From: Tidjanibacter sp.
Lineage (GTDB): Bacteria; Bacteroidota; Bacteroidia; Bacteroidales; Rikenellaceae
Length of the DNA: 49,339 nt
Assembly: GCA_017390585.1 (NCBI GenBank)
Contig: JAFPBB010000061.1
Location: forward strand, 1-49,339
Direction of reading: 5' to 3'
A program made the translations under genes and the position numbers. Under the pieces are notes generated by a model that made no database searches, was not told the DNA's origin, and was given only the letters and a program-made list of their open reading frames with translations. Below, piece by piece: positions 1-49,339 of the stretch. The stretch's first letter is position 1. Every line of letters begins with the position of its first letter.

Positions 1-236
1 GTGAAGGGGTAGTAGGCATAGGGGTAGTAGGTTCCCTCCATCAGTCGTCGGAAACCACCCTTGCCGAACCCCTCTTCGTAGAGCTCGAGGTCTGTGGGGC
101 GCAATCCGGAGACCACGATGTTGACAATCAGTCGAGGCCTTCCGGAGTTGTTATTTTTGGCACTCACACCTGCCGAGCGACCACCTGTGAGGGCGGCTGC
201 GGTGAGCAGGAGGAGTAGCAGTGAGAGTCGCTTCAT
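1..236 (-). CDS. Alkaline phosphatase family protein, PafA-like (N-terminal part only)
   Basis: Only the first 78 codons are inside the window; the rest lies beyond position 1. The peptide starts with a hydrophobic signal sequence (MKRLSLLLLLLTAAALTGG). It then has RPRLIVNIVVSGLRPTDLEL followed by a GKGGFRRLMEGTYYPYAYYP-like segment. This matches the start of Bacteroidetes PafA-type phosphatases / type I phosphodiesterases, where K/R-P-x-L-V-V-x-I-V-V-D-Q-x-R-x-D-x-L precedes a GGF-rLl motif. In the typical family that V-D-Q aspartate is a metal ligand, but here the matching stretch reads VVSGLRPTD, so the canonical Asp-Gln is replaced. The protein should be periplasmic or exported. The identification rests on the N-terminus alone, so the substrate (phosphomonoester or diester) cannot be stated. 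Confidence 0.6.
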   Translation of the reverse strand, partial: MKRLSLLLLLLTAAALTGGRSAGVSAKNNNSGRPRLIVNIVVSGLRPTDLELYEEGFGKGGFRRLMEGTYYPYAYYPF

Positions 237-258
237 ATTGGTTGGGAAATATAGGGCG

Positions 259-289
259 TAAAGGTATAAATATCTTTGATATTTAACAA
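259..289 (-). promoter_or_regulatory. Bacteroidetes-type promoter for the PafA-like gene
   Basis: On the minus strand there is a TTG at 289-287, a 20-bp spacer, and TACCTTTA at 266-259, close to the -33 TTTG / -7 TAnnTTTG pattern of the primary Bacteroidetes sigma factor. The spacer holds a perfect 7-bp inverted repeat (AAATATC-AAA-GATATTT) that could be an operator. The start codon follows about 23 bp downstream. Confidence 0.5.
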
Positions 290-337
290 CGCTTCGGGGC
301 GATTATTTACTCGTTCCCCATCGTGGTTGGTGCCACT

Positions 338-1315
338 CTATTCGCCTGCCACCGCGTCGGAGAAGTGTGCCACATAGTCGGAGGCGATGGGGTTGTTGGG
401 GAAATCCCTCAGCAACTGCTCGGCTTGGAGTCGCATCGCACCTCGGAAGGCCACGTATTCGGAGCTCTCGGGATGGAGTGGGCGGTGGTTTCGGGCCTCG
501 GCAAGGCGTGCAAATTGCGCTCCGCTTCGGCGAGCTTCGGGCGAGAGGTAGGCCTCTGCAAAGAGCTCCCACACATACTCCACAGCCACCCTCGAGGGGT
601 GGACCATATCTTCGCCATAGAATCGGTAGTCGCGCAAGTCGTCGACAAGGGCCTCATAGGCAGGGAAGTAGTGGCACCTCTCGGGGTGGGCACCCACCAC
701 CTCATCCACGGCCACTCGGAGCGTGGCTTTCGAGAGCGAGTTGCCCTCCAGCCCGTCGGCGAGGTGGCGTATGGGGCTCACGGTGAACAAGATGTGCTTC
801 TCGGGTAGCCTCGCCACGATTCGCTCCAGCGCCTCCACAACCTCACCCACCTCGAGTCGTCGGCGAGTGAACTCACGTGCGGGCACCTTGTGGCAATTGG
901 CCACCACCTCTCCCTCGCGTTCGTAGACCCACGCTGTGCCGAGCGTCACAACAACCCACTCGGCTCTGCGGAGTGCCTCCCCACCCTCTTCGATGGCTCC
1001 ATTGATGGCCGCCGCCACGCGCTCTCCATCGGGGCCGTCGAAACAGCCGTGGGTGTCGAACGAGAAGGCCAAGTTGCCCCTATGGGAGAGCTCATCGGGG
1101 ACCACGGTGCGCCTCTCCACCATTCGGCCTATGGCGCGCTCGATGGAGAGGGGGTTGTAGAGTGTGCCGAGAGGGTTGGAGAGGGTCTCAATCCCCACCC
1201 TCACAAGGCGCTCTGCCACCTCCTCTGCGAAGCAGGAGCCTATGGAGAACACTCTCATCTGTTGGTCCAACCTACTCTGGCTGGGGCGGATATCTATCTG
1301 TGTGCGGAATTTCAT
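338..1315 (-). CDS. GSCFA domain-containing protein
   Basis: A 325-aa protein of the GSCFA family, named after its GSCFAEEVAERL-type motif, seen here near residue 25 (FSIGSCFAEEVAERL). The family resembles GDSL/SGNH esterases, with the Ser of GSCF as presumed nucleophile and a C-terminal DxxH-type segment (YGEDMVHPSRVAVEYVWELF) supplying Asp/His. It is very common in Bacteroidetes and its substrate is unknown. The start at 1315 (MKFRTQIDIRPS) is preferred over upstream in-frame codons because it begins at the conserved KFRTxxxI segment and lies just downstream of a promoter. The gene is transcribed away from ispE. No signal peptide is visible, so a cytoplasmic enzyme is likely. Confidence 0.85.
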   Translation of the reverse strand: MKFRTQIDIRPSQSRLDQQMRVFSIGSCFAEEVAERLVRVGIETLSNPLGTLYNPLSIERAIGRMVERRTVVPDELSHRGNLAFSFDTHGCFDGPDGERVAAAINGAIEEGGEALRRAEWVVVTLGTAWVYEREGEVVANCHKVPAREFTRRRLEVGEVVEALERIVARLPEKHILFTVSPIRHLADGLEGNSLSKATLRVAVDEVVGAHPERCHYFPAYEALVDDLRDYRFYGEDMVHPSRVAVEYVWELFAEAYLSPEARRSGAQFARLAEARNHRPLHPESSEYVAFRGAMRLQAEQLLRDFPNNPIASDYVAHFSDAVAGE

Positions 1316-1338
1316 TGGTGTGGATAGTGAAAGATTTA

Positions 1339-1381
1339 TTTGCTCAACACAAAGATAGGGATTATATTTGTAGTCACACAA
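1339..1381. promoter_or_regulatory. Overlapping divergent promoters for ispE (+) and the GSCFA gene (-)
   Basis: Plus strand: TTTG at 1339-1342, a 20-bp spacer and TATATTTG at 1363-1370, a perfect Bacteroidetes -33/-7 pair 50 bp ahead of ispE. Minus strand: TATCTTTG at 1357-1350 with a TTG at 1381-1379. The two promoters overlap, so polymerase binding at one should interfere with the other. Confidence 0.7.
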
Positions 1382-1419
1382 TCGGAACCCCATAAGTTTC
1401 ACCCCCAAGAGTGCAGAAA

Positions 1420-2235
1420 ATGACAATCAAAGCCTACCCGAAAATAAACCTCGGACTCGACATTCTCCGCAAGCGCGACGACGGCTTCCACGACATCGAC
1501 ACCCTGATGCTCCCCATCAAGGCCGTGGCCGACACCCTCACCATTGAGCCCAACACCACGGGCGGATGTTCCCTCCACATCGAGGGTCTCCAGGTGGACT
1601 GCTCTGCCGAGCGCAACCTCGTGGTGCGTGCGTGGATGCTCCTCAAGGAGCTCTACGATGTGGGCGGGGTCGATATGCAGCTCCACAAAGCCATCCCCTT
1701 TGGTGCGGGACTCGGAGGTGGTAGCGCCGACGCCGCAGCCGCCCTCACGGGCATAGCCAAGCTCTACGAACTCCCCATCTCCGAGGCCGAGCTCATCCAA
1801 CTCGCCTCCCGACTCGGCAGCGACGTCCCCTTTTTCATCCGCTCGGAGCCCACGTTTTGTCGCGGACGCGGCGAGATTATGGAGCCCGCCGAGATGGATT
1901 TGTCGGGGCTGTGGTGCGTGGTCTCCAAGCCTGCCTTTGGCATCTCCACCGCCGAAGCCTATGCGGGAGTCACCCCCTCCATCCCTGCCACTCCCCTCTG
2001 CGAGCGACTCCGCCTTCCCCTCCAGAGGTGGCAGAGCGAGATTGTCAACGACTTCGAGCGCTCGCTCTTCCCGCGCCACACGGCTCTCCCCAACATCAAG
2101 CGCGAGTTGCAACGTTGCGGTGCGCTCTACGCCTCGATGTCGGGCTCGGGCTCGGCAATGTTCGGTCTCTTCGACCACGAACCCACCTACGCCCCCATCT
2201 TTGCCGGCGAGGAAGTCTTTGTGTGCAAGCTCTGA
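1420..2235 (+). CDS. ispE: 4-diphosphocytidyl-2-C-methyl-D-erythritol kinase
   Basis: A GHMP-family kinase of 271 aa that phosphorylates 4-(CDP)-2-C-methyl-D-erythritol with ATP, the fourth step of the MEP isoprenoid pathway. The N-terminal substrate motif (AYPKINLGLDIL) and the glycine-rich ATP loop (PFGAGLGGGSADAAAAL, about residues 89-105) are intact. The C-terminal GHMP motif is MSGSGSAMFGLF. The ATG at 1420 is chosen over the GTG at 1411 because MTIKAYPKINLGL is the usual family start. Length is normal. dxr of the same pathway is 23 kb away in this window. A hairpin terminator follows at 2257-2298. Confidence 0.95.
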   Translation: MTIKAYPKINLGLDILRKRDDGFHDIDTLMLPIKAVADTLTIEPNTTGGCSLHIEGLQVDCSAERNLVVRAWMLLKELYDVGGVDMQLHKAIPFGAGLGGGSADAAAALTGIAKLYELPISEAELIQLASRLGSDVPFFIRSEPTFCRGRGEIMEPAEMDLSGLWCVVSKPAFGISTAEAYAGVTPSIPATPLCERLRLPLQRWQSEIVNDFERSLFPRHTALPNIKRELQRCGALYASMSGSGSAMFGLFDHEPTYAPIFAGEEVFVCKL

Positions 2236-2256
2236 GACTACTATAGCAACAAACAA

Positions 2257-2298
2257 TCGAGGGAGATTGGCGTGTCGATTCACACCAATCTCCCTCGA
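2257..2298. terminator. Bidirectional hairpin terminator between ispE and the EEP gene
   Basis: A perfect 14-bp inverted repeat (TCGAGGGAGATTGG at 2257-2270, complement at 2285-2298), with a further GTG/CAC pairing inside, sits between two convergent genes. Neither side has a long T-run, but the position and stability fit a shared terminator. Confidence 0.7.
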
Positions 2299-2331
2299 CT
2301 CATATCTATCGGTCGGTCTATTTCCCCCGGC

Positions 2332-3531
2332 CTACTCTTCCTCAATCAGCAACACTCTGCACACCAGCGGTTTGTGGTCCGAGAACTCGAGGTCGTAGGA
2401 GGCATACTCCTTGATGTCGAAGTGGTCACCCTCGGGGAAGATGTAGTCGATGCGGAAGAGGTCGAAGAGCCCACGGAAGGTGTGCTCCACGCCTCGGCCA
2501 CAGCTGAGGTAGGCATCATCGAGCCTTCGGCCACGCATAGTGCGGTAGGTGTAGGATACGGGGGTGTCGTTGAAGTCGCCACAGAGAATCACGGGGTGGG
2601 GCGAGGCCTCCACCGCCGCAGCCACACTCTCGGCTTCGGAGGCACGATGGCGGTAGTTGTCGCCCATTTTCGCAGCCACAAGAGAGAGCTTTTCGCCTGC
2701 TGCTTGGTCGTCGATAATACGCACCGAGAGGGTTTCGTGTCGCTCCTCATCCGTGATGCCCGTCGATTGGAGGTGGACATTGAAGATGCGGAGGGTGTCG
2801 CGCCCCATCTTCACATCGGCCCAGATGGCATTGACGTTACTCTCGTCGCTATCGGCCACACCGTGGCGAACAATGGGCCACGTTGAGAGGAGTGCATAAC
2901 CCGCCCCCGTGGAGCTATCCTTCTGCTCGGGGATGGCGTTCACAAAGATGGAGTAGTTGATGCGCGAGAGGTCGTTGCGGAGCTGAGTGAGGGTTTGCGA
3001 GTCGGAGAATTGGGCCTCCTGGAGAGCCACTATGGAGGCTCCCTGCCCATTGAGCCACTCCACAATATCCTCGTAGCGGTTGGTCTTCTGGTCGGGCGAG
3101 AGGAAGTTGGCCACATTGTAGCTCACCAGCACAATGTCGTCCCTTGTGCGCTCCACGGCCGAGGCCTTGCTCGCAAAGTCGGGACGATAGAAGAGTGCAA
3201 TGTTGCTCCCTCCGAGCAGCAACATCGCTCCCGAGACCAAGAACCATTTGCGCCAGCGCACCACCCACCAGAGTGCCGCCACGATATTGAGGTAGTAGAC
3301 CACCTGGAAAAAGAGACCTGCGAGGGTGAATATCGCCGTGCTCCTCGGGTCGACCACCTTGGCGAGCATACCGGCAATGAGTCCGAGGGCTGCGAGGATG
3401 GTGAGAGCCATCATCAGCGAGTCGGCCACAACGAGCAGTGCGCGAGCCACTCCACCTGTGGGGCGTTCGCGTCGTGCGCTACCATATTCGCTGTGGTAGT
3501 AGCCGTCGGTTGTTCTGCGTTTGCGGGTCAT
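2332..3531 (-). CDS. Endonuclease/exonuclease/phosphatase family membrane protein
   Basis: 399 aa. The first ~125 residues hold three hydrophobic segments (residues ~32-58, 64-85, 90-112), so the catalytic domain is tethered to the inner membrane. From ~135 on it is a DNase I-like fold: VSYNVANFL, ALQEAQ (metal-binding Glu), FNVHLQS, ILCGDFNDTP and FSDHKPLV (catalytic Asp-His). Bacteroidales genomes carry this architecture widely; the substrate could be a nucleic acid, phosphoinositide-like lipid or other phosphodiester. It is the last gene of a leftward operon, 24 bp after the rhomboid protease and downstream of mutL. All catalytic motifs are present, so it should be active. Confidence 0.85.
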   Translation of the reverse strand: MTRKRRTTDGYYHSEYGSARRERPTGGVARALLVVADSLMMALTILAALGLIAGMLAKVVDPRSTAIFTLAGLFFQVVYYLNIVAALWWVVRWRKWFLVSGAMLLLGGSNIALFYRPDFASKASAVERTRDDIVLVSYNVANFLSPDQKTNRYEDIVEWLNGQGASIVALQEAQFSDSQTLTQLRNDLSRINYSIFVNAIPEQKDSSTGAGYALLSTWPIVRHGVADSDESNVNAIWADVKMGRDTLRIFNVHLQSTGITDEERHETLSVRIIDDQAAGEKLSLVAAKMGDNYRHRASEAESVAAAVEASPHPVILCGDFNDTPVSYTYRTMRGRRLDDAYLSCGRGVEHTFRGLFDLFRIDYIFPEGDHFDIKEYASYDLEFSDHKPLVCRVLLIEEE

Positions 3532-3555
3532 CTGTCGCTTGGGTTAGTTGCCAAA

Positions 3556-11355: not shown

Positions 11356-13854
11356 ATGAAACTTTCCGAACTCAAAAATGGTGAACAGGCCATCATCGTC
11401 CGAGTGGCAGGTCACGGCGGATTCCGCAAGCGCATTATGGAGATGGGCTTCGTGCGTGGTGTGGAGGTGAGCTCCGTGCAGGACTCGCCGATGCACGACC
11501 CCGTGAAGTACACCGTGATGGGCTACGACGTCTCCCTGCGCCGCAGCGAGGCCGAGATGATCGAGGTGCTGCCCGCAGGCGAGGCCAACCTCCCCATTGA
11601 GACGGCCGCACCCTCCTTCACCTGCAACTCCATCTGTGAGAGTTGCGCGGTGGGCAACTGCACCTCCCGCGGAGCCCGCACCCTCCGCAGAAACGAGATC
11701 AACGTGGCCCTTGTGGGCAACCCCAATAGTGGCAAGACCTCCCTCTTCAACGTACTCTCGGGCAGCAGCGAGCACGTGGGCAACTACAGCGGTGTGACCG
11801 TCGACGCCAAGCTCGGCAAGCTCACCTACAAGGGCTACCGCATCAACATCACCGACCTGCCCGGCACCTACTCCCTCTCGGCCTACACCCCCGAGGAGGT
11901 CTACGTGCGTGAGCATCTCTACAACTCTATGCCCGACGTCATCCTCAACACCGTCGTGGCCTCCAATCTCGAGCGCAATCTCTATCTCACCACCGAGCTC
12001 ATCGACCTCAACCTACGCACCGTTGTGGCGCTGAATATGTACGACGAGCTTCAGCAGAGCGGCGCCCGCCTCGACTACAACTCGCTGGGTGCGATGATCG
12101 GCATCCCAATGATACCCACCATTGCCAAGAGTGGCTACGGCATAGAGCCCCTGCTCAACGCCATCATCGACCTCTTTGAGGGTCGCAATGCCGACGCCCG
12201 CCACGTCCACATCAACTATGGCCACTCCCTCGAGGGCCAGATCCGCCGCCTCTCCGACACCATCCGCACCGCCCCCGACCTACCCAAGCAGTTCCCCGTG
12301 CGCTATTGGGCCATCAAGCTCCTCGAGCGCGACACCAAAGCCATCAGTCAGCTCACCGTCTGCAAGGACCTGCTGATGTGGAAGGAGTTGGCCGAGGAGG
12401 GTGCTGCAAAAGTGGAGGCCGAGGTGGGTAGCGACATCGAGACCATCCTCAGCGACCACAAATACGGATTTATTGCCGGCGCACTCGAGGAGACTCTCCA
12501 CGAGAAGGGTGCCGACTTCAACCACCACTCGCGCCGCATCGACCGCTTTGTGGCCAACCGTTGGACCGGCTTCCCGCTCTTCATTCTGCTGATGTGGCTG
12601 ATGTTTTGGGCCACCTTCACCCTCGGCGGCTACCCCCAGGAGTGGATTGAGGCAGGATTTGGATGGTTGGGCGAGTGGCTGTGGGGCGTGATGCCCGAGG
12701 GTGCTCTGCGCGACTTGGTTGTGAACGGCATTGTGAGTGGCGTGGGCAGCGTGGCCGTGTTCCTCCCCAACATCCTGATTCTCTATCTCTTCATCTCGCT
12801 GATGGAGGATTCGGGCTATATGGCTCGCGCGGCTTTCATTATGGACAAGCTGATGCACCGTATGGGGCTCCACGGCAAGTCGTTCATCCCCCTGCTGATG
12901 GGCTTTGGCTGCAACGTGCCCGCCATTATGGCCACGCGCACCATCGAGAGTCGCTCCTCGCGTCTGATAACCATCCTTGTCACTCCGTTTGTGTCGTGCA
13001 GTGCCCGCCTGCCCGTCTTTTTGCTCTTGGCCGGCACTTTCTTCCCCCACGGTGCCGCCACGGTGCTCATTGGGCTCTACCTGCTCGGCATCCTTGTGGC
13101 CTTCCTCACGGCTCGCCTCTTGCGCCTTTCGAAGTTCAAGCGCGACGAGACCCCCTTTGTTATGGAGCTTCCGCCCTACCGTATGCCCACTCTGCGTGCC
13201 ACGGTCAAGCATATGTGGGATAAGTGTGCCCAATATATCCGCAAGATAGGCACCACCATCCTGCTGGCCACCATCCTCATCTGGGCCCTCTCCTACTACC
13301 CCCGCCCCACGAGTGACAAGGTTGTTGCCACCCCCACCGAACTCGCAGCGAACACCCCCTCCGAGGTCGGCACAAACGAGGCACCCACTGCAGAAATTGC
13401 CACAGCAGAGATTGCCACAGCAGCTGCAAACACCGCCTCTGCCGCCACACTCAGCGCCGAGGGTGAGCGCTACTCCCAATCCTTCATCGGACGCATAGGC
13501 CACTTCATTGAGCCTGCGATGCGCCCCCTCGGACTCGATTGGCGTGCGGGCGTGGCCCTGCTGACGAGCATTCCTGCCAAGGAGTTGGTGGTGAGCACAA
13601 TGGCTGTGCTCTACGGTGGCGACGACATTGCCTCCCTCTCGCGCAATATCACCACCCACAGCGGCCTCACCCCTGCCTCGGCCCTTGCTTTTATGGTCTT
13701 CATACTCCTCTTCTTCCCCTGCATTGGCACATTGGCGACCATCAAGGCGGAGACGGGCAGTAGGGGTTGGATGTGGTTCACGGCGCTCTACAACACAGCC
13801 ATTGCGTGGCTCCTTGCCCTGCTGACATTCCACCTCGGCAACATCATCTTCTGA
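11356..13854 (+). CDS. feoB: Fused FeoA-FeoB ferrous iron transporter
   Basis: 832 aa. Residues 1-75 are a FeoA SH3-like domain (MKLSELKNGEQAIIVRV ... GYDVSLRRSEAEMIEVLP). After a Cys-rich linker (CNSICESCAVGNC, about 93-105) comes the FeoB G domain: G1 VGNPNSGKTSLFN, switch region NYSGVTVDAK, G3 DLPGTYSLS and G4 NMYDE. The C-terminal half carries the Fe(II) permease with Gate motifs, including the GFGCNVPAIMATRTIE and CSARLPVF signatures. A 45-residue Ala/Thr/Glu-rich stretch (about 655-700, with AEIATAEIATAAA) interrupts the loop before the last core helices. FeoA-FeoB fusion is normal for Bacteroidetes. The gene stands alone between its promoter and a strong terminator. Confidence 0.96.
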   Translation: MKLSELKNGEQAIIVRVAGHGGFRKRIMEMGFVRGVEVSSVQDSPMHDPVKYTVMGYDVSLRRSEAEMIEVLPAGEANLPIETAAPSFTCNSICESCAVGNCTSRGARTLRRNEINVALVGNPNSGKTSLFNVLSGSSEHVGNYSGVTVDAKLGKLTYKGYRINITDLPGTYSLSAYTPEEVYVREHLYNSMPDVILNTVVASNLERNLYLTTELIDLNLRTVVALNMYDELQQSGARLDYNSLGAMIGIPMIPTIAKSGYGIEPLLNAIIDLFEGRNADARHVHINYGHSLEGQIRRLSDTIRTAPDLPKQFPVRYWAIKLLERDTKAISQLTVCKDLLMWKELAEEGAAKVEAEVGSDIETILSDHKYGFIAGALEETLHEKGADFNHHSRRIDRFVANRWTGFPLFILLMWLMFWATFTLGGYPQEWIEAGFGWLGEWLWGVMPEGALRDLVVNGIVSGVGSVAVFLPNILILYLFISLMEDSGYMARAAFIMDKLMHRMGLHGKSFIPLLMGFGCNVPAIMATRTIESRSSRLITILVTPFVSCSARLPVFLLLAGTFFPHGAATVLIGLYLLGILVAFLTARLLRLSKFKRDETPFVMELPPYRMPTLRATVKHMWDKCAQYIRKIGTTILLATILIWALSYYPRPTSDKVVATPTELAANTPSEVGTNEAPTAEIATAEIATAAANTASAATLSAEGERYSQSFIGRIGHFIEPAMRPLGLDWRAGVALLTSIPAKELVVSTMAVLYGGDDIASLSRNITTHSGLTPASALAFMVFILLFFPCIGTLATIKAETGSRGWMWFTALYNTAIAWLLALLTFHLGNIIF

Positions 13855-21436: not shown

Positions 21437-21507
21437 TGGGCTGTGGTGTAATGGTAACACAACAGATTCTGGTCCTGTTATTCATGGTTCGAGTCCGTGC
21501 AGCCCAA
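21437..21507 (+). tRNA. tRNA-Gln (anticodon CUG)
   Basis: 71 nt without an encoded CCA. The acceptor stem is TGGGCTG (21437-21443) with CAGCCCA (21500-21506) and discriminator A. The D arm is GTG...CAC. The anticodon stem ACAGA/CCTGT has one A-C mismatch next to the loop; the loop TTCTGGT gives anticodon CTG. The T arm is CATGG-TTCGAGT-CCGTG. It holds one of only two CATG tetranucleotides seen in the window. A terminator follows at once, so it is transcribed alone. Confidence 0.93.
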
Positions 21508-21509
21508 CT

Positions 21510-21793: not shown

Positions 21794-22288
21794 TTATCGC
21801 TCCAGCTCCCACACCTCCAGGTCGCGCGGGGTGCCTCCATCGAGGACAAAGCGCACAGCGGTGCGAACGCGGTGGAAACCATTGTTGCCAGCAGCCCCGG
21901 GGTTGATGTTGAGCACCCCAAGTTGCTTGTCGTAGCCCACGCGCAGGATATGGCTGTGGCCACAGACGAATATGGCGGGTCGGAGCGAACGGATGCGACC
22001 ATAGACCTCGCGCGTGTAGCGCCCACCATAGAAGCCTATGTGGGTCATCAGAATCTTCACACCCTCGCGCTCGAAACAGCGCCACTCGGGGTAGGTGAGT
22101 CGGAGGTTGTGGTCGTCGATGTTGCCGTAGACCGCCACCACGGGCTTCCCGAGGGAGGCTATCTGCTCGGCAGTGGCGAGGTTGCCGATGTCACCCGCAC
22201 ACCAAATCTCGTCGACCTCGGCGAGAAATCGGCGTAGGGGCTGGTCGAAGCAGCCGTGGGTGTCGGAGATAATGCCTACTTTGAGCAT
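21794..22288 (-). CDS. YfcE/MJ0936-family metallophosphoesterase
   Basis: 164 aa. The binuclear metal site is complete: GIISDTHGCFD, CAGDIGN, VYGNIDD, LMTHIGFYGG and FVCGHSHILRV. The C-terminus NINPGAAGNNGFHRVRTAVR is the usual end of the family. These enzymes hydrolyse phosphodiesters in vitro; the natural substrate is unknown. The start MLKVGIISDTHG (22288) is taken because the family begins directly with the first strand; an upstream in-frame ATG at 22330 would add a hydrophobic stretch (MGWWALLCAMTLLA) without family support. It points toward the repeat cluster at 21.6-21.8 kb. Confidence 0.9.
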   Translation of the reverse strand: MLKVGIISDTHGCFDQPLRRFLAEVDEIWCAGDIGNLATAEQIASLGKPVVAVYGNIDDHNLRLTYPEWRCFEREGVKILMTHIGFYGGRYTREVYGRIRSLRPAIFVCGHSHILRVGYDKQLGVLNINPGAAGNNGFHRVRTAVRFVLDGGTPRDLEVWELER

Positions 22289-22409
22289 CGCCAGCAGCGT
22301 CATCGCGCACAGAAGAGCCCACCACCCCACAGCGAGAGCCCAACTGCACTATCTGTGGCCGTGGGCACTCTCCGCATTGGGGGAGGGTATCTGTTGCGCT
22401 CGGTTGGTG

Positions 22410-25040: not shown

Positions 25041-26204
25041 ATGAAACAGCGACTCGCCCTGCTCGGCTCAACGGGTTCGATTGGCCGACAGACACTCGAC
25101 ATAGTACGCCGCCGCCCCGAGGAGTTCGAAATCACCACCCTCACCGCAGGCAACCAATGGGAGGAACTCGCACGCCAAGCGCTCGAATTCCACCCCGACA
25201 GCGTCGTCATTGCCAACAAACAACACTACGCCCCCCTCTGCGAGGCCCTCGCCAAGGAGCCCATAAAGGTCTATGCCGGCTCGGAAGCTCTCGAGCAGGT
25301 GGTGGGCGGAGGCGAGGTCGACACGGTGGTCAACGCCTTGGTGGGCTATGCAGGTATGCTCCCCTCGCTGGCGGCAGTGAAGGCCTCCAAGCGACTCGCC
25401 CTGGCCAACAAGGAGAGCCTTGTGGTGGCGGGTGAGCACATCATCCGCGAGGCCGCAGCCCACAATGTCCCCATCCTCCCCATCGACTCCGAGCACTCGG
25501 CCATCTTCCAGTGCTTGGCAGGAGAGAGCAGTGCCCCCCGCAGGGTCATCATCACCGCAAGTGGCGGTCCCTTCCTCCGCACCCCCGCCGAGGAGTTGGA
25601 GCGCGTGAGTGTGGCTCAGGCCCTCGCCCACCCCAATTGGTCTATGGGCGCAAAGATCACCATCGACTCCTCCACCCTCGTCAACAAGGGCTTCGAGGTC
25701 ATCGAGGCGCGCTGGCTCTTTGGACTGAGACCCGAGCAGATAGACGTGTTGGTCCACCCCCAATCGATAGTCCACTCAATGGTGGAGTTCGACGACGGCG
25801 CCATCAAGGCACAGCTCGGCACCCCCGATATGCACCTCCCCATTCAGTATGCACTCCGCTTCCCCGAGCGCGGTGAGCTGGGCGAGGAGAGGCTCGACTT
25901 TGCCAAGTGTGCCACCCTCACCTTCGAGAAGCCCGACACGGAGCGCTTCCCGCTGCTCAACACCGCCTACGAGTGCCTCCGCAGGGGTGGCAACAGCTGC
26001 TGTGTGATGAATGGCTCCAATGAGGTGGCTGTGGCAGCATTTTTGGCGGGTGAGATAAAATATACCGACATTGCTCGCGTTATAATTGGGACCCTCGAGC
26101 GGGCGCAGTTTGTGGCTGCACCCACCATCGAGGAGTATGCAGCCTCCAATCAGGAGTCGAGGGCCATATCGAGTGAGATTGCCTCCCGCCTCCGACTGAA
26201 ATAG
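25041..26204 (+). CDS. dxr: 1-deoxy-D-xylulose 5-phosphate reductoisomerase
   Basis: 387 aa. The enzyme converts DXP to MEP with NADPH, the committed step of the MEP route. It has the NADPH loop GSTGSIGRQTLDIVR at residue 9, ALANKESLVVAG, the metal and substrate residues in ILPIDSEHSAIFQCL, SGGPFLRTP, WSMGAKITIDSSTLVNKGFE and the C-terminal helical domain. The length is normal. It is followed 72 bp later by rseP, a neighbour seen in many Bacteroidetes, and both probably belong to one operon with the M23 gene. Confidence 0.97.
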   Translation: MKQRLALLGSTGSIGRQTLDIVRRRPEEFEITTLTAGNQWEELARQALEFHPDSVVIANKQHYAPLCEALAKEPIKVYAGSEALEQVVGGGEVDTVVNALVGYAGMLPSLAAVKASKRLALANKESLVVAGEHIIREAAAHNVPILPIDSEHSAIFQCLAGESSAPRRVIITASGGPFLRTPAEELERVSVAQALAHPNWSMGAKITIDSSTLVNKGFEVIEARWLFGLRPEQIDVLVHPQSIVHSMVEFDDGAIKAQLGTPDMHLPIQYALRFPERGELGEERLDFAKCATLTFEKPDTERFPLLNTAYECLRRGGNSCCVMNGSNEVAVAAFLAGEIKYTDIARVIIGTLERAQFVAAPTIEEYAASNQESRAISSEIASRLRLK

Positions 26205-26276: not shown

Positions 26277-27584
26277 ATGGATGTAGCTATCAAAATATTG
26301 CAGTTCATCTGCTCCTTCACCCTCCTTGTGATGGTCCACGAGATGGGCCACCTCCTGCTGGGCAAGCTCTTTGGCGTGAGAGTGGAGGAGTTCCGCATCT
26401 TCTTCGGCAAGGCTTGGTTCAAGCGTCGCTGGGGCGAGACCGAGTATGGCATAGGCTGGCTGCCCTTTGGTGGCTACGCCAAGCTCGCAGGTATGGTCGA
26501 CGAGAGTATGGACACCGAGCAACTCAAGAGTGCCCCCCAACCCTGGGAGTTTCGCTCCAAACCCGCGTGGCAACGCCTGCTGATAATCCTCGGCGGCGTG
26601 ATGATGAACGCCATCCTCGCCTTTGTCATCTATGTGGGCATAAGCCTCGCTTGGGGCGACCGCTACATCTCCAATAGCCAGATGCCCTACGGCTATGTCT
26701 ACAGCGACTATGCCAAGGCTCTCGGCTTCGAAGATGGCGACAAGATTGTCTCCATAGCTGGCACCCCCATCGAGGACTACGCACGCATCCTCCCCACCCT
26801 CATCATCGAGGAGGAGAAGAGCATCGTGGTGCTTCGCAATGGAGAGGAGCTCACCATCGACATCCCCGTGCAGAGCGTTATGGAGCTCTCCGAGCAGACC
26901 GACTTTCTCACCCCACGCCTCCCCTTCGTGGTGGCCAATGTTGTGGAGGGAATGGGCGCCGCGGAGGCAGGACTCCGCAGTGGCGATGAGGTTGTGGGTG
27001 TCGACGGCCAGGAGGCCCGCTTCTACGACCAGATAGCCCCCGCACTCCTCGCCCACGCCGGCGACACCATAGGCCTCACCCTGCTGAGGGATGGCGCCCC
27101 TGTGGAGTGCCGCGTGGTAGTGTCGGCGGAGGGACAAATAGGTGTTGGTCTCGCCTCGGCGGAGTATATACCCGTGGCAAATAGGAGCTACACCCTCCTC
27201 GAGGCCATACCCCGCGGTGCGGAGAGAGTTGTGGAGGAGATGCGCGACTATTGGAAGCAGCTGAAGATGATTGTGCGCCCCCAGACGGAGATGTACCGAG
27301 CCCTCGGCGGCCCCATAGCCATTGGCGGCATCTTCCCCAACGAGTGGAATTGGGAACACTTCTGGAAGATTACGGCGCTGCTGTCGGTGGTGCTTGCGAT
27401 TATGAACGTGCTGCCCATCCCTGCGCTCGACGGCGGCCACGCCTTGTTCATTGTCATTGAGATGCTCACGGGTCGCCGCCCGAGTGACAAGGTGATGATG
27501 GTGGCCCAAGCCATAGGAATGACCTTGCTGCTGCTGTTGATGTTCTACGCCACCGCCAACGACATCACGCGCCTGTTCCGATAG
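26277..27584 (+). CDS. rseP: RIP metalloprotease RseP (site-2 protease)
   Basis: 435 aa. The zinc motif is VHEMGHLL (HExxH, residues 21-25) in the first membrane helix, and the second signature is VLPIPALDGGHALF near residue 390. Two PDZ domains lie between (about residues 130-215, KALGFEDGDKIVSIAGTPIE; and 218-300, GAAEAGLRSGDEVVGVDGQE). It cleaves anti-sigma factors or signal-peptide remnants within the inner membrane. A possible target in this window is the single helix of the Dma-type anti-sigma factor; that link is inference. Directly downstream is a 370-bp repeat cluster. Confidence 0.95.
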   Translation: MDVAIKILQFICSFTLLVMVHEMGHLLLGKLFGVRVEEFRIFFGKAWFKRRWGETEYGIGWLPFGGYAKLAGMVDESMDTEQLKSAPQPWEFRSKPAWQRLLIILGGVMMNAILAFVIYVGISLAWGDRYISNSQMPYGYVYSDYAKALGFEDGDKIVSIAGTPIEDYARILPTLIIEEEKSIVVLRNGEELTIDIPVQSVMELSEQTDFLTPRLPFVVANVVEGMGAAEAGLRSGDEVVGVDGQEARFYDQIAPALLAHAGDTIGLTLLRDGAPVECRVVVSAEGQIGVGLASAEYIPVANRSYTLLEAIPRGAERVVEEMRDYWKQLKMIVRPQTEMYRALGGPIAIGGIFPNEWNWEHFWKITALLSVVLAIMNVLPIPALDGGHALFIVIEMLTGRRPSDKVMMVAQAIGMTLLLLLMFYATANDITRLFR

Positions 27585-35695: not shown

Positions 35696-38600
35696 TTAGA
35701 AAGTTACGTTAGCACCGAAGGTGAGGGTGCGAGCCTGGGGATATACACCACGGTCGATACCATAGGCAGTACCGAAGCTGGAGTTACCACCGGTAACCTC
35801 GGGATCACAACCGGTATATTTGGTCAGGGTGAAGAGGTTGTCGCACGAAACGTATACCCTCACGCGGGAGATTGCAAACTTCTCGGTCAGATTTGCGGGC
35901 AGAGTGTAGCCCAGCTGGATGTTCCTCATACGGATGAAAGAAGCGTCCTCCAACCAGTAGTCCGAAACGCGATAGTTCTCATTCTTCGACTCAAACTCAA
36001 ACTTGGGTGCCGAGTTGGTTGTGCCCTCGCCGGTCCAACGGTTGAGAATGTTCTTGGGAAGGTTGATGGAGTAGAGGTCGGTACGGCGGCTTACGTTGAA
36101 GACGTCGTTACCTGCCTGGCCCTGCAAGAAGGCGCTGAAGTCGAAGTTCCTCCACTCGAGGGTGAGGTTCAAACCGAAGGTCCAATCGGGAGTACCCTTA
36201 CCGATGATGGTACGGTCGTCCTCGTTGATAATACCATCCTCGTTGATATCAACCCAACGGAAGTCACCGGGGGTTGCATTGGGCTGAATGAGAGTGGTGT
36301 TGCCCTCTGCGTCGGTGTGGGTGTAGGCGTTAACCTCGTCCATATTCTGGAACACGCCTGCGGTCTGCCAGCCCCAGAAGTAGGGGAATACCATACCGAG
36401 GTCACCACGGGTGAGGGTACCGATCTTGTGGCTATCACCGGTCAGATAGGTCGACTCGTCGCCGAGGTGGGTGAGTTTGTTGGTGTTGTAGGATACGTTG
36501 GCATTGATACCATAGTTGAGCTCGCCTGCCCTACCGCGGTAGCCGAGGTCGATCTCGATACCTTTATTCACCATATTACCCACGTTACCGATAGGTGCGG
36601 AGTCACCTGCGTAGCTGGGAACCTGCATTGCCATCAGCATACCGCGAGTCTCTTTGGTGTAGTAGTCGAGGCTGAGGGTGAGCGAGTTGTTGAAGAAGCC
36701 CAGGTCAACACCGAGGTCGGTCTGTACGGACTCCTCCCACTTGATGTTGGGGTTGGCAAGACCGTTGGGTTTGTTACCCACGATGATGGTCTCGGTGCCA
36801 CCAACGCCGAAGGGATAGTTGTTACCCGACACCATAGTGGTGGTGTAGCGCATATCACCGATCGAGTCGTTACCGTTCTTACCCCACGATGCGCGAACCT
36901 TCATTGCGCTGATGAGGTCGATGTTCTGCAAGAACTCCTCGTTCTTCACGTTCCAACCTGCCGAAAGCGAGGGGAATACGCCCCACTTGTTGTTGGGACC
37001 GAAGCGCGACGAACCATCACGACGTACGGTTGCCTGCAACATATATTTCTCTGCGTAGTTGTACGATGCACGAGCGAAGTAGGATGCAAGGCGGTAGGGG
37101 GTCGAGTGATAGTAGCCATAGACGCTCTGCCAGCCGTCTGACGAGGTACCGGTTGCGAAGTTGATGTTGGCCATATATTCGTTCACCTCGGGGAGGTTGC
37201 TCTTCGAGCCACCCACCTGTGCGCCATTCTGCGAGATGGCTGCCTGACCGAGCAGGATCTGGAAGTTGTGGTCCTCAATCTGCTTCTCATAGGTCAAGGT
37301 GTTCTCAATCTGCCACCTGAGGCTGCGGTTCATCTGCTGGTATGCGCTGGTTGCATACTGGGGTTTGTAGGTCACAACCTTCTCGCCTTGCTCGTTGTAG
37401 GAAACCTCCTCGGATACCTGGTCGAGGTTGAAGGACTTCTGGTTGCGATAGTACTGCATATTGTAGCCGTGGTTGCCCCAGAACGAAAGGTCGGCACCGA
37501 ACGAAGTGCGGAAGGTGAGGCCCTCTGCAATCTGCAGGTCGAGAGCTGCGTTGGCCACGAACTTATCGGTGTTGTACTTGGTTGCGGGGAGCTGCATAGT
37601 TGCCAGGGGGTGCTGGAGCTCATTGTAGACACCACCGTCCACCATCGAGTAGACCTTACCCTCGGCGTCGCGGATCATGTGGGGGAATACATAGAGTTTC
37701 GAACCATCGGGCTGAGCGATGAAGATCTCTTTGTACTGCTCAATCTCCTCCTCGGTTGCGTAGATAGCCTGGAGGGGGCTCATTGCCATTGCCGAGCCGA
37801 GAACGGTACCGAACTCCGAGCTCTCGCCTACGCTACCCACCGAGTTGATGTTTGCATAGGATACGTTCACCGAAACGGTTGCTTTGTTGAAGAGTGCGCG
37901 GCTGCTGCTCTTATCGAAGAGGGTAGCCTGGGTGTTGGCACGGAGGGTGAGACGGTCGTAGTTCGAAACGCCATAGTTACCGCCGACGATACCGTCCTGT
38001 GCGAAGTAACCTGCCGAGAACATATAGTTAACCTTGTCGCTTGCGCCACTCACCTGCACCTGGTGCTGCTGAACGGGAGCGTTCTTGTTGAGAACGGCGT
38101 CAACCCAGTCGGTACCCTTGCCGAACGAGTAGGGATCGGCGTAGCGGGGAGCCTTACCTGCGTTGATGTCACCCTCGTTCATCATAATTGCATACTCGGT
38201 AGCGTCGAGAACCAGAGGTTTGCGCCATACGTTCTGCATACCATAGGAGTAGTCGTATGTGATGACTGCATCGCCCGATTTACCCTTCTTGGTGGTAACG
38301 AGAATTACACCGTTTGCTGCACGAGCACCATATACTGCTGCGGAAGCTGCATCTTTGAGCACCTCAACGCGCTCGATATCGCTGGGGTTGAGGTAGTCGA
38401 TACCGCCCGAGAGGGCCATACCGTCGACGATATAGAGGGGCTGCGAGTCGTTGATGGAGCCGATACCGCGGATACGCACCTGCGACGATGCACCGGGAGC
38501 ACCCGAAACCTGCTGAACTGCCACACCGGAGGAGAGACCACGCAGAGCGTTGTCGATACGGGTGGGAGCCGATTTCTCGATTGCGTCCTCCGAGATCGAG

Positions 38601-38974
38601 GAGATGGCGGCGGTCACCACGCTCTTCTTCTGGGTACCGTAACCGATAACCACGATGTCCTCGAATACCTCAGCCTCGCTCTCGAGGGTGAAGTTGATCA
38701 CCGAGCGGCCATCTACAGCCACGGTCACGGTGGTCATACCGAGGTAGGAAACAGTAAGGTGGTTCTTAGCAGGGTCTGCAACAGCGATGGTATACTCGCC
38801 GTCGACGCCTGTAATAGTACCTTGGTTGGTCTCATCAACCATCACAGTTGCACCGATTACGGGTTCACCGGAGGTGTCTTTGACCGTACCTCTCACTTGC
38901 TGTGCGTAGATACTGCCACAGCCGACGCCCATCATCGCGAGGAAGAGGGCGATTTTAAGTGTAAAGTTTTTCAT
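35696..38974 (-). CDS. susC: SusC/RagA family TonB-linked outer membrane protein
   Basis: 1092 aa. A signal peptide (to about residue 24) is followed by a CarboxypepD_reg-like domain (VRGTVKDTSGEPVIGATVMV), the TonB box region, and a plug with the SusC signatures (LRGLSSGVAVQQVSGAPGAS, QVRIRGIGSINDSQPLYIVD, VEVLKDAASAAVYGARAANG). The barrel ends in ARTLTFGANVTF with a terminal Phe. It imports glucan oligosaccharides with SusD. It is the first gene of the leftward operon. One of the two CATG tetranucleotides of the window is at 37676-37679, at His-Met. Confidence 0.97.
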   Translation of the reverse strand: MKNFTLKIALFLAMMGVGCGSIYAQQVRGTVKDTSGEPVIGATVMVDETNQGTITGVDGEYTIAVADPAKNHLTVSYLGMTTVTVAVDGRSVINFTLESEAEVFEDIVVIGYGTQKKSVVTAAISSISEDAIEKSAPTRIDNALRGLSSGVAVQQVSGAPGASSQVRIRGIGSINDSQPLYIVDGMALSGGIDYLNPSDIERVEVLKDAASAAVYGARAANGVILVTTKKGKSGDAVITYDYSYGMQNVWRKPLVLDATEYAIMMNEGDINAGKAPRYADPYSFGKGTDWVDAVLNKNAPVQQHQVQVSGASDKVNYMFSAGYFAQDGIVGGNYGVSNYDRLTLRANTQATLFDKSSSRALFNKATVSVNVSYANINSVGSVGESSEFGTVLGSAMAMSPLQAIYATEEEIEQYKEIFIAQPDGSKLYVFPHMIRDAEGKVYSMVDGGVYNELQHPLATMQLPATKYNTDKFVANAALDLQIAEGLTFRTSFGADLSFWGNHGYNMQYYRNQKSFNLDQVSEEVSYNEQGEKVVTYKPQYATSAYQQMNRSLRWQIENTLTYEKQIEDHNFQILLGQAAISQNGAQVGGSKSNLPEVNEYMANINFATGTSSDGWQSVYGYYHSTPYRLASYFARASYNYAEKYMLQATVRRDGSSRFGPNNKWGVFPSLSAGWNVKNEEFLQNIDLISAMKVRASWGKNGNDSIGDMRYTTTMVSGNNYPFGVGGTETIIVGNKPNGLANPNIKWEESVQTDLGVDLGFFNNSLTLSLDYYTKETRGMLMAMQVPSYAGDSAPIGNVGNMVNKGIEIDLGYRGRAGELNYGINANVSYNTNKLTHLGDESTYLTGDSHKIGTLTRGDLGMVFPYFWGWQTAGVFQNMDEVNAYTHTDAEGNTTLIQPNATPGDFRWVDINEDGIINEDDRTIIGKGTPDWTFGLNLTLEWRNFDFSAFLQGQAGNDVFNVSRRTDLYSINLPKNILNRWTGEGTTNSAPKFEFESKNENYRVSDYWLEDASFIRMRNIQLGYTLPANLTEKFAISRVRVYVSCDNLFTLTKYTGCDPEVTGGNSSFGTAYGIDRGVYPQARTLTFGANVTF

Positions 38975-45968: not shown

Positions 45969-45993
45969 TACAAAGGGTTGCTCCCTGCACATA

Positions 45994-46031: not shown

Positions 46032-46057
46032 ATCTATTGCGCGAACAAAACGAACTG

Positions 46058-46585: not shown

Positions 46586-46656
46586 TGCAGGTCGTCGAAT
46601 GAAGGGATAACTATCTGTAATTCAAATATATTGTCGGCATAAAGCCACGCGCAGGG

Positions 46657-47898
46657 CTACTCCACCTTGAGCTGAATGGCCTCGATGTAGCTCTTCTGGA
46701 TGACGCAGTTCTCAAAGCGGCTATTCTCCACAAACTCCATCATCAGCCTGCGTGCCTCACTCTGCGAGGGTCGAGCCGCACGAATCTCCGCATAGGTGCC
46801 CCTGGGAGCCTCGGAGAAGTTGCGCACGAGCTCCCAACCCTCGGGCTCGGGGATGCCCACGCAGCAGCTGTTGGTGAGCTTCTTGTAGGGCCAGAAGGTG
46901 TAGCCTATGTTGTTCTCCACCATTGCGTTGCAGAAGTCGGCCATCCACTCGTCGGTGTTGTGGCCAATCTCGCCCATATACATAGGTCGGTTGGTCTTGT
47001 CGCGGAAGTCGATGAAGCCGCGGATGGCATCGGCGGTGGCAGGGCCTCCATAGCGATGGCAGGAGTACATAATGCCCTCGTCGAAGAGGGTGTTCTCCAG
47101 CGGCTCGAAGTTGCTGTTCCACTGCGCGCCACCGAGGATGATGACGTGGTTGCGGTCCACCTTGCGGATGGCCTCCACACCTATGCGATAGAGGTCGGCA
47201 AGCTTGCCATTGAGCTCGGGCACATTGTCGAAATAGGGGGCAATGGGCTCGTTGAGCAGGTCGTAGCCGAGGATGATGGGCTCATCCTTGTAGTGGTCGG
47301 CAATGCGCTGCCAGATGGAGGCGTAGAGCTCCTGCGCCTTGGGGCACTCGAGCAACCAGGGGTAGCCGTGGCTGTCGTCGATGTTGTCGCCCGTCTGACC
47401 CGCAGGTGCGTCGTGCATATCGAGAATGAGGTAGAGACCCTTGCCACGACACCACTCCACAAGGCGGTCGATGCGCTCAAAACCATCCTGATTGGCTGTG
47501 AGCCCCATATAATCCTCGTCGGTGAAGAGCTTGTAGTGGAAGGGTACGCGGATGGTGTTGGCACCCGTGGAGGCGATGAAATCGATGTCGGCCTCGGTGA
47601 TGTAGTTGTCCTTGAAGGCGGCCCAAAACTCGTCGGTGAAGGTGGGCCCCACCAGCTGTCGGAACATCAGGTCGATGGCACCGGCAGAGTTGGTGCGCTG
47701 GAAACCAAACATATAGCCCTCGGGATTGAGCCAATTGCCGAGATTGGTGCCTCGGATGAAGAATTTGCTACCATCGGGTGCAATGAGGTTGGGGCCGTCG
47801 ATGGTGATGAAGTCGGGATTGGAGTTGATGGCCTGTGGCGTGTGGTTGCAAGAGAGCGCCGCAAGAGCCGCAAGAAGAATAGAGATTAGTCGTTTCAT
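46657..47898 (-). CDS. GH5 family glycoside hydrolase lipoprotein
   Basis: 413 aa. The lipoprotein signal ends in LAALSC and the next residues (NHTPQAIN) carry no acid, suggesting a periplasmic enzyme. The (alpha/beta)8 barrel shows FIRGTNLGNWLNPEG (resembling exo-beta-1,3-glucanases), NTIRVPFHY, LILDMHDAPAGQTG, the acid/base glutamate in GYDLLNEPIAP and the nucleophile in MYMGEIGHNTDEW. The GTNLGNWLNPEG and DMHDAPG-like segments favour beta-1,3- or beta-1,6-glucosidase activity over cellulase. It lies leftward, separated from GH3 by two unrelated genes, but fits the same substrate. Confidence 0.9.
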   Translation of the reverse strand: MKRLISILLAALAALSCNHTPQAINSNPDFITIDGPNLIAPDGSKFFIRGTNLGNWLNPEGYMFGFQRTNSAGAIDLMFRQLVGPTFTDEFWAAFKDNYITEADIDFIASTGANTIRVPFHYKLFTDEDYMGLTANQDGFERIDRLVEWCRGKGLYLILDMHDAPAGQTGDNIDDSHGYPWLLECPKAQELYASIWQRIADHYKDEPIILGYDLLNEPIAPYFDNVPELNGKLADLYRIGVEAIRKVDRNHVIILGGAQWNSNFEPLENTLFDEGIMYSCHRYGGPATADAIRGFIDFRDKTNRPMYMGEIGHNTDEWMADFCNAMVENNIGYTFWPYKKLTNSCCVGIPEPEGWELVRNFSEAPRGTYAEIRAARPSQSEARRLMMEFVENSRFENCVIQKSYIEAIQLKVE

Positions 47899-47955
47899 AG
47901 CAATGTGTGTTTAGAAGTGATAGGCAACAATGTGTGCAGACCAAGGGTCCACCCT

Positions 47956-47963
47956 CAAAGATA
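47956..47963 (-). promoter_or_regulatory. -7 box of the GH5 gene
   Basis: TATCTTTG on the minus strand, 58 bp ahead of the GH5 start. No TTG at 19-21 bp upstream. Confidence 0.5.
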
Positions 47964-48065
47964 CACATAATTTTTGAGAACACCACACCCCCTCCCATCA
48001 ACACAGCAAAAAACACCCCTCCCCTTTCGTAGGGGAGGAGAACACACGCTCCCGCCTTTCAGGCA

Positions 48066-48086
48066 CCCCCTCTAACTTAGAGGGGG
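48066..48086. repeat. 21-bp palindrome, copy 1
   Basis: Arms CCCCCTCTAA and TTAGAGGGGG around a central C. The element occurs again, with a central G, at 48280-48300. Short hairpins of the same style (CTCCCC-TTTCGTA-GGGGAG at about 48020) lie nearby. The whole gap 47899-48657 has no gene. Confidence 0.85.
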
Positions 48087-48140
48087 AGTAATGGGAGGAG
48101 TATATTGGAGGAGTTAATTTGAGTAATGCGCCGAAGGCCC

Positions 48141-48245
48141 CAATTTTAATCCCTCTTCGAGGGCTTTTAATTGCTCACGCTCGGCAGAGCAAACAAGTTT
48201 GTTCTGCCCTCGCTCACTCGCAATTTTGAATTTTGAATTTTGCAT
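48141..48245. repeat. 105-bp composite hairpin repeat, copy 2
   Basis: Same element as 21676-21780. The first hairpin is CCCTC-TTC-GAGGG and the second GCAGAGCAAAC-AA-GTTTGTTCTGC, 11 pairs with one G-T. Fixed parts are identical to copy 1. It lies between the GH5 promoter and the region downstream of gdhA. Confidence 0.9.
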
Positions 48246-48279
48246 TTTGAATTAAAGGAAACGCACCACCCACAAAATT

Positions 48280-48300
48280 CCCCCTCTAAGTTAGAGGGGG
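48280..48300. repeat. 21-bp palindrome, copy 2
   Basis: Arms identical to 48066-48086 with the central base changed to G. A short TCAC-GAA-GTGA hairpin follows at about 48303. Confidence 0.85.
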
Positions 48301-48426
48301 TGTCACGAAGTGACGGGGGCGTGTGTCAATGTTGAATCCCCCGATACCCATAAGCATATATGCGCGCACGCACACACGCGCGCGACCACCACATCCCCAC
48401 AAAAAGCCCCCAACAAATGCACAAAA

Positions 48427-48530
48427 AGCGCAGATTGTTGAGGGATTTTTGGGCCAAACAAAGGAGCGAGCCCGCAGGCATCGGAACGATGCATTTGTGA
48501 GGGTGGTGCTACCCCAGCTTTCGGGAGAAT
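48427..48530 (-). repeat. Degenerate copy of the 8.5-9.0 kb repeat family
   Basis: On the minus strand: CCCTCACAAAT, a hairpin GCATCG-TTC-CGATGC (48492-48478), CTGCGGGCTCGCTCC, TTTGTTTGGCCCAAAAATCC and AATCTGCGCTTTTTG. This is the same module order as in each unit of the array at 8500-8990. Confidence 0.75.
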
Positions 48531-48531
48531 A

Positions 48532-48614
48532 AAAAAACACAGATAAGCGAGCGGATTTTAGGCGCACAAGAAAATCTCCCCCGCAGTTTGCTTACGCAAA
48601 TGAGGGGGAGATTT
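48532..48614 (-). repeat. Two-stage hairpin element downstream of gdhA
   Basis: On the minus strand: outer arm AAATCTCCCCC (48614-48604) pairs with GGGGGAGATTT (48582-48572), inner arm TTTGC (48600-48596) with GCAAA (48591-48587), with CTCA before and CTGCG after the inner stem. TAAAATCCGCTCGCTTATCTG and a T7 run follow (to 48532), so it can end the gdhA transcript. Element 8929-8970 has the same plan. Confidence 0.8.
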
Positions 48615-48657
48615 ATCGATGTGCAACGCCAAAGGCGCCGCTTATATGCGTTTTTTA

Positions 48658-49339
48658 TTAGATGACGCCCTGCTCAAGCATAGCCTGTGCCACCTTCATA
48701 AAGCCTGCAATGTTTGCACCCTTAACGTAGTCAACGGTACCGTCGGCCTTCTCACCGAAGCGTACGCACTGCTCGTGGATGCTCTGCATAATGAAGTGGA
48801 GTTTGTCGTCAACCTCCTGAGCCGACCAGCTGAGGTGAGCAGCGTTCTGAGTCATCTCGAGACCCGAAGTTGCAACACCACCTGCGTTCACAGCCTTACC
48901 GGGAGCGAAGAGGATGCCTGCGTTCTGGAATGCAGCGATAGCCTCGGGGGTGCAACCCATATTCGAAACCTCGCAGCAGCACCAGGTGCCGTTTGCCAGA
49001 AGCTCCTTAGCATCGTCGCCGTTGAGCTCGTTCTGGAATGCGCAAGGAAGAGCGATGTCGCACTTCACGCTCCAAGCCTTCTTGCCAGCGGTGAACTTAG
49101 CAGCCTCGGGGAACTTGGTTGCCATATCCTCAACTTTGTTGCGGTTGGAAGCACGCATCTCGAGCATATAGTCGATCATCTCCTTGGTGATACCGCCGGG
49201 GATCTCGCAAACGCCGTCGGGACCCGAGATAGCGATAACCTTACCGCCGAGCTCGGTAGCCTTGGTAGCAGCACCCCAAGCTACGTTACCGAAGCCGGAG
49301 AGGGCGATGGTCTTGCCAGCGATGTCCTTGCCGGCCAAC
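48658..49339 (-). CDS. gdhA: NADP-specific glutamate dehydrogenase (C-terminal part only)
   Basis: 226 residues of the C-terminal half; the start lies beyond the window. The nucleotide-binding domain begins at DIAGKTIALSGFGNVAWGAA (GxGNVA motif) and continues with VSNMGCTPEAIAAFQNAGIL, APGKAVNAGGVATSGLEMTQ and a C-terminal helix YVKGANIAGFMKVAQAMLEQ. It interconverts 2-oxoglutarate plus ammonia and glutamate and is the main ammonia-assimilation route of Bacteroidales. The hexameric bacterial form of about 445 aa is expected. Directly downstream is the two-stage hairpin element. Confidence 0.95.
   Translation of the reverse strand, partial: LAGKDIAGKTIALSGFGNVAWGAATKATELGGKVIAISGPDGVCEIPGGITKEMIDYMLEMRASNRNKVEDMATKFPEAAKFTAGKKAWSVKCDIALPCAFQNELNGDDAKELLANGTWCCCEVSNMGCTPEAIAAFQNAGILFAPGKAVNAGGVATSGLEMTQNAAHLSWSAQEVDDKLHFIMQSIHEQCVRFGEKADGTVDYVKGANIAGFMKVAQAMLEQGVI

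Follow-up and report, generated by a model that had tools for sequence, protein, structure and literature searches.

Recognition sites of Type II restriction systems have been reported to show more frequent avoidance when the system is a long-term resident, and this avoidance may persist in system-less genomes whose relatives encode the system, as 'traces of lost systems' (Rusinov et al. 2015, PMC4687349). For the word CATG, the closest described systems are NlaIII and the IceA1-HpyIM pair of Helicobacter pylori; in that species, most iceA1 copies are reported to be broken and M.HpyI to be universal, with CATG as the densest methylated motif (9036/Mb) (PMC13340068, PMC10423294). Here we describe the near-absence of CATG from a 49,339-nucleotide contig of Tidjanibacter sp. 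(JAFPBB010000061.1, positions 1-49339, hereafter the window), together with a cassette found in related genomes that pairs an NlaIII/IceA-type nuclease (R) with methylases. We consider it probable that CATG is avoided almost totally in this group, and that the avoidance is maintained by a mobile, intermittently present Type II cassette.

CATG loss in the window, its genome and its relatives

The window is contig C49 of an 84-contig, 1.75-Mb assembly that is 84.7% complete (GCA_017390585.1), designated G000; other G numbers denote survey genomes and L numbers sampled loci. An earlier note on this DNA had counted exactly two CATG, against a chance expectation of about 180 at a GC content near 58%, and our recount agrees: the sites start at 21483 and 37676, whereas 185 are expected from base composition (GC measured at 57.1%) and 213 from trinucleotides (Poisson log10 P ~ -88). 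The observation is thus confirmed as right and strong. It extends to the genome, where a 591-kb sample (~34% of G000, including 10 kb masked because four contigs read N) holds 31 CATG for 2455 expected. Within coding sequence, 136 predicted genes (168 kb) contain 4 CATG; when synonymous codons are permuted gene by gene, 638 +/- 17 appear, which makes the deficit 160-fold. The observed/expected ratio (O/E) is 0.013 in G000 and 0.026 in the depleted genome G311, far under the composition-corrected expectation, as in restriction-site avoidance. The loss is not shared by palindromes in general, which the earlier note had said would speak against its claim: among the 16 palindromic four-letter words in G000 coding DNA, only CATG (0.006) and CTAG (0.027) have ratios close to zero; GATC (0.36) and TTAA (0.38) come next. 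CTAG, overlooked in the earlier note, occurs 0 times for 100 expected in the window and 20 times for 1255 in the 591 kb. Since it is nearly absent from CATG-normal congeners too, its loss represents a separate, genus-wide background.

RYCATGRY was counted in 23 genomes of the genus, 268 of the family and 295 of the order. Within the genus, 13 of the 23 genomes are depleted (5-34 sites), G303 is intermediate (195) and nine are normal (465-863). Across the family, 60 genomes fall below 30 RYCATGRY/Mb, a cut-off for depletion set after the data had been seen, with a continuum of intermediates above it. Relative to the reversed pattern, G000 is by eye the lowest in the order survey (7 vs 197), followed by genomes with 40 vs 298 and 53 vs 282. 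CATG O/E is 0.66 in G304 and 0.43 in G303. In samples of 20 contigs from each (one G304 and seven G303 contigs read N), values ranged from 0.32 to 0.84 over 19 readable contigs of G304 and from 0.17 to 0.77 over 13 of G303. Chimeric bins were set aside as the source of these higher values because every readable sampled contig (19/20 and 13/20) has intermediate to high CATG.

Several lines of evidence bear on explanations by composition, by biased codon usage, or by artefacts of assembly or of the library, to which we give practically no credence. The genus-wide scarcity of CTAG, for which no cause was found here, is in their favor. However, shuffling synonymous codons restores 638 CATG where 4 are real, which rules out composition and codon usage as causes; normal CATG levels are seen in congeners, among them the near relative G304; and in aligned DNA the sites differ by substitution.

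The distribution of the loss across reading frames bears on its cause. In feoB (named in the earlier note; 11356-13854, + strand), which had been described as avoiding C before Met, not one of the 27 codons ahead of a Met has C as its last base, although ATC, TTC, TAC, and AAC dominate the gene overall. This generalizes to G000 genes, with C before Met in 4 of 1380 cases (frame nnC|ATG) compared to 8121 of 14,222 (57%) before other A-initial codons. Likewise, in the CAT|G frame, His before G is written CAC in 239 of 239 cases and never CAT, which elsewhere accounts for 92 of 733, and in the nCA|TG frame a third-base A is found at 0 of 213 positions before TG vs. 1900 of 12,281 elsewhere. Because all three frames have been near-completely cleared, by silent choices at different letters, the pattern is better explained by selection on the entire word than by loss of its C, and a C>T process is disfavored since it would largely spare CAT|G and nCA|TG. 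Over 26 kb aligned between G000 and G304 (80% identity; alignments of >=70% identity and >=300 bases), 1 of 85 G304 CATG is kept in G000, compared to 33-69% for nine other four-letter words; among the 84 altered sites, 33 read CATA or TATG and 51 other words. Frames and substitutions alike therefore point to selection at the level of the motif rather than to single-base mutation.

The earlier note had offered, next to restriction, a repair or modification process turning CATG into TATG or CATA, both of which it judged over-common. These words are indeed mildly raised in the window (145/113 and 258/188 observed/expected), but GATG (365/191) and CATC (390/233) are raised more. We regard a mutational destruction of CATG, through deamination of 5-methylcytosine or a Vsr-like repair bias, as very improbable. 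CATA and TATG are the commonest G000 states at G304 CATG sites, which counts in its favor. Its expected signature, loss by a single transition with other frames spared, is not what we see: CAT|G was cleared via T and nCA|TG via A as fully as nnC|ATG via C, and the 51 sites that became other words are the majority of the 84. In addition, the methylases of the cassette described below match the D12 and N6_N4 families, which act on amino groups and not on C5. C>T decay was accordingly rejected as the cause on the frame and substitution evidence.

The few sites that persist are located partly where substitution is constrained or DNA appears foreign. The first CATG of the window (21483-21486, + strand) lies inside tRNA-Gln (21437-21508), in the T-stem by eye, and is structurally constrained as had been proposed; the second (37676-37679) is, as described, a His-Met pair, CAC|ATG, in gene 35696-38974 (- strand; susC in the earlier note). 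Among the first 22 residual sites of G000, one is in tRNA-Gln and two are in tRNA-Met. An AAA-ATPase (AAA_21)/RloB gene pair contains four residual CATG, and another two follow closely behind it (L013 453-2340; pair region L013 133-2340). With its ordinary CATG density in a nearly CATG-free genome, this pair is apparently a recent import. Two more are found at a contig end (L001 1-768), where a sigma-70 fragment is fused in frame to ribosomal protein L18, probably through misassembly. Based on these locations, constrained RNAs and the apparently imported pair retain CATG, and other genes do so very rarely.

An NlaIII/IceA-type cassette in depleted relatives

Matches to PF05315 (ICEA/NlaIII nuclease) over the curated cut-off were detected in 3 of the 23 genus genomes and 10 of the 268 family genomes; among the 295 genomes of the order none passed the cut-off, and two weaker matches were seen. 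All ten family carriers, from three genera, are depleted (2.2-26 RYCATGRY/Mb), so that R occurs in 10 of 60 depleted and 0 of 208 other family genomes (Fisher P 1.7e-7, relatedness ignored). Association with a cognate restriction-modification system, a further mark of avoidance, is thus found in the relatives and not in G000, relatedness again being ignored. The earlier suggestion of a long-standing CATG-specific restriction is accordingly supported at the level of the clade.

The match of the nuclease to PF05315 is full-length (E 1e-117), and the gene order is M1 (a PF01555 methylase), R, and M2 (a D12 methylase); in G297, an EVE-domain gene separates R from M2. In the genus, full-strength relatives of M1 and M2 occur only in the three R carriers. 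A non-exhaustive scan of named genomes with two short peptide patterns recovered at least 78 loci from many phyla. Among 88 loci, duplicates and partial matches included, homologues of M2 are present at 85, of M1 at 76, and of the EVE gene at 22, where it mostly lies between R and M2 and in four cases upstream of R. The adjacent D12 adenine methylase that characterizes NlaIII/IceA-type systems is therefore near-universal here (85/88). Homology, together with depletion in the carriers, suggests that the family R homologues cut CATG and that the cassette confers putative N6-methyladenine methylation of this word. The EVE gene at L023 (2188-3324) encodes a 379-amino-acid protein whose similarity to the EVE domain is weak, as is its NucS-like match; the 22 loci are those with a homologue of this protein.

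Copies of the nuclease at different places are closely related. R is 96-98% identical among L097-L100, whose flanking genes differ; judging from identity values, these loci appear to correspond to G347, G299, G432, and G384, from two genera. Third-position agreement of R is 0.71-0.79 over the four pairs that were compared, and the cassette is presumably younger than the split of the genera. Across L096-L107, cassettes contain 25 of 88 expected CATG and flanks 37 of 637, so that purging has gone less far inside the cassette than around it, and the cassette's GC content is 0.34-0.40 compared to 0.45-0.56 in the flanks. L096, from a sheep-rectum Tidjanibacter sp. metagenome-assembled genome, carries an R identical to the G302 copy, and 8 of the 12 closest loci have titles naming a ruminant, which makes a gut habitat probable for the Rikenellaceae host of the window as well. 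Searches for R relatives yielded one partial 44% match in plasmids (Priestia), none in phages, and 31 candidate stretches in viral contigs, none of them related.

Proposed maintenance and decay of CATG avoidance

Under the explanation that we favor as probable, a mobile Type II cassette (M1, NlaIII/IceA-type R, an optional EVE-domain gene, and the D12 methylase M2) would cut CATG and reside on and off, varying by lineage and over time, among certain gut Rikenellaceae. During residence, unmethylated CATG would become open to cutting when methylation is imperfect or the cassette is lost, at what we infer to be a small self-cutting cost per site; in mutation-selection-drift theory, 2Ns of just ~4-5 per site is enough for a deficit of 77- to 160-fold. 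Sites would disappear by silent changes, leaving CATG mainly where it is constrained (tRNA) and in apparently imported genes, and where the cassette is absent in the long term, CATG would return at about the neutral rate. Such intermittent residence would account for depleted genomes in which the cassette is not found.

The rate of return can be compared to a simulation in which synonymous codons of G000 genes are re-drawn at random. A genus tree and third-position divergence were taken from two genes named by eye, dxr (25041-26204, + strand), the first marker, and an rseP-like gene (26277-27584, + strand), the second; several inner nodes of this tree have support of 0.35-0.76, and G301 and G313 were left out as they gave no dxr match. 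Simulated CATG O/E is ~0.44-0.55 at a third-position identity of 0.64-0.67 between two branches, and ~0.55-0.73 at 0.59-0.64. G303 (identity 0.64 to G299) has an O/E of 0.43 compared to ~0.5 simulated, and G304 (identity 0.60 to G000) has 0.66 compared to ~0.7, so that both roughly match a release from selection at about the time of their splits. Conversely, G000 and G311, depleted and nuclease-negative, show little or no relaxation. With 4 coding sites compared to 743 after re-randomization, G000 is unlikely to have been free of selection for more than ~1% of synonymous turnover, and depleted R-negative genomes such as G000 would therefore have been under selection until very recently. This recent selection where R was not detected means that the cassette comes and goes at the strain level, that assemblies miss it, or that another agent is involved.

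Loss of the cassette from assemblies, i.e., its presence in most depleted strains as a low-GC variable island dropped by metagenome binning, is possible although unlikely in our estimation. Detection of R climbs with completeness, from 0 of 12 depleted genomes below 80% to 2 of 25 at 80-90% and 8 of 23 at >=90%, and the GC contrast between cassette and flanks noted above is of the expected kind. Moreover, no cassette was found in G300 (85% complete), close as it is to the R-bearing G299 (third-position identity 0.86). Nevertheless, 6 of the 10 depleted genomes that are >=95% complete are without R, G311 (99%) and the single-contig G527 among them.

Another CATG-acting system, outside the families searched, could also sustain depletion in R-negative genomes, which we judge less likely again. 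The recent selection implied by the simulation speaks for such a system. A PF01555 match is missing from 10 of the 23 genomes checked, 8 of which are depleted, and D12 matches are missing from G000 and G311; the methylase search covered PF01555 and PF02086, and motif reading covered ~34% of G000 and ~20% of G311. In G371, a PF01555 methylase adjoins a 347-amino-acid open reading frame (L195 405-1445) with no Pfam or PADLOC match. Against this, among the neighbors scanned at 12 of 19 PF01555 methylase loci, the restriction enzymes that could be identified were DpnII, Tsp45I, EcoO109I, and BsoBI, alongside one homing endonuclease. We take none of these four restriction enzymes to be specific for CATG.

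A gene length of 163 amino acids that recurred beside methylases did not mark a common CATG candidate: the gene is a phosphoesterase in G298 and G307 and a RecX-like protein in G397. In G298 and G307 (L187 682-2216; L188 890-2340), an N6_N4 methylase with no recognized nuclease alongside adjoins the phosphoesterase, which by eye resembles a window open reading frame (21794-22330).

A number of observations weigh against maintenance by an intermittent cassette, foremost the genomes that lack it: neither R nor M1 nor M2 was found in the 84.7%-complete G000 assembly, and R was not found in 50 of the 60 depleted genomes. Six of these 50 are 96-99% complete, and one of the six, G527, is a single contig. 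The association itself depends on the threshold, with R in 6 of 45 depleted vs. 4 of 223 other genomes at 15/Mb (P 0.002) and 10 of 69 vs. 0 of 199 at 50/Mb. Residual sites in the AAA/RloB pair imply that unprotected CATG is tolerated now. Third-position agreement between M1 of L098 and the M1 copies of L099 and L100 is only 0.61-0.62, which speaks against a uniformly young cassette; taken together with the R values, transfer is old at the strain level and the cassette may be a mosaic. The regain clock rests on two genes, with placement support of 0.57 (G303) and 0.76 (G304) and branches assumed equal. Outside the family, R carriers are often undepleted (CATG O/E 0.66-0.70 in Rodentibacter, 0.82 in a Treponema, 1.22 in Helicobacter cetorum), and flanking CATG O/E is below 0.2 at only 28 of 71 carrier loci, close to GGCC (26/72), CTAG (25/62), and GATC (24/73); for these flank ratios, 4 of the 78 loci were dropped because their flanks were too short, and loci were tallied where the expectation exceeded 5 (medians) or 8 (counts). 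Undepleted carriers and other palindromes low near R mean that having R is by itself no predictor of depletion; the length of its residence may be one. Finally, CATG density in H. pylori was reported as not significantly linked to nuclease presence (PMC10423294).

At five R-bearing loci from Helicobacter-related or Deferribacterales genomes (L125, L127, L134, L157, L172), another word, GTAC, is strongly low (O/E 0.04-0.16).

Maintenance by an intermittent cassette can be extended, tentatively and with less confidence than an even chance, to a view of the CATG-free state as a heritable, population-level immunity. The group would act as a cassette reservoir, in which the cassette establishes only in CATG-poor genomes because these can gain or lose it without killing themselves, moves among them, and purges even lineages that hold it for a minority of the time. 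Favoring this extension, all ten family R carriers are depleted and none of the 208 other genomes carries R, near-identical R is found at four differently flanked places, and G000 and G311 show hardly any relaxation. R carriers with ordinary CATG outside the family weigh against it.

Comparison with known systems

A parallel exists within the same genus for GATC, whose observed/expected counts in sampled regions are 0/80 in G213, 0/38 in G300, and 0/39 in G310, compared to 162/150 in G295. A DpnII nuclease lies beside a Dam-family methylase in G300 and G213 (L082 1450-3190; L083 1453-3218), and G310 has a D12 methylase. In the sampled regions of the DpnII carriers the motif is thus at zero, an internal parallel that involves another motif and other enzymes and that counts in favor of the cassette explanation. 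The parallel is imperfect, since the GATC-poor G311 is without a D12 match and G113 has D12 matches yet ordinary GATC (61/65).

The near-complete erasure of a four-letter word from some species and not from close relatives constitutes a natural experiment, from which the strength, onset, and decay of restriction selection can be read, with a decay that seems to run nearly at a neutral pace. Should the cassette establish only in site-poor genomes, avoidance would be no mere scar and would help decide which restriction systems a lineage holds. CATG content could also flag a history of NlaIII-type systems in metagenome assemblies.

Compared to NlaIII and IceA1-HpyIM (PMC13340068, PMC10423294), the family cassette is similar in its full-length PF05315 nuclease followed by a D12 methylase, and differs in having M1, a PF01555 methylase, as an additional gene and, in some cases, the EVE-domain gene as well. 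The outcome in H. pylori, as reported in those studies, is the opposite of the CATG loss seen here. Our literature search found no report of this CATG case, and the word is absent from the main text of the avoidance survey (PMC4687349). Avoidance is usually graded as a modest statistical signal; where that survey describes an avoidance threshold of O/E <= 0.78, the values here are 0.013-0.026, with switching within one genus and partly recovered lineages. In kind, this looks like the restriction-site avoidance with traces of lost systems already known, at a seemingly unusual extreme; what is new is the strength, the on/off pattern, and, within the family, a nuclease confined to depleted genomes.

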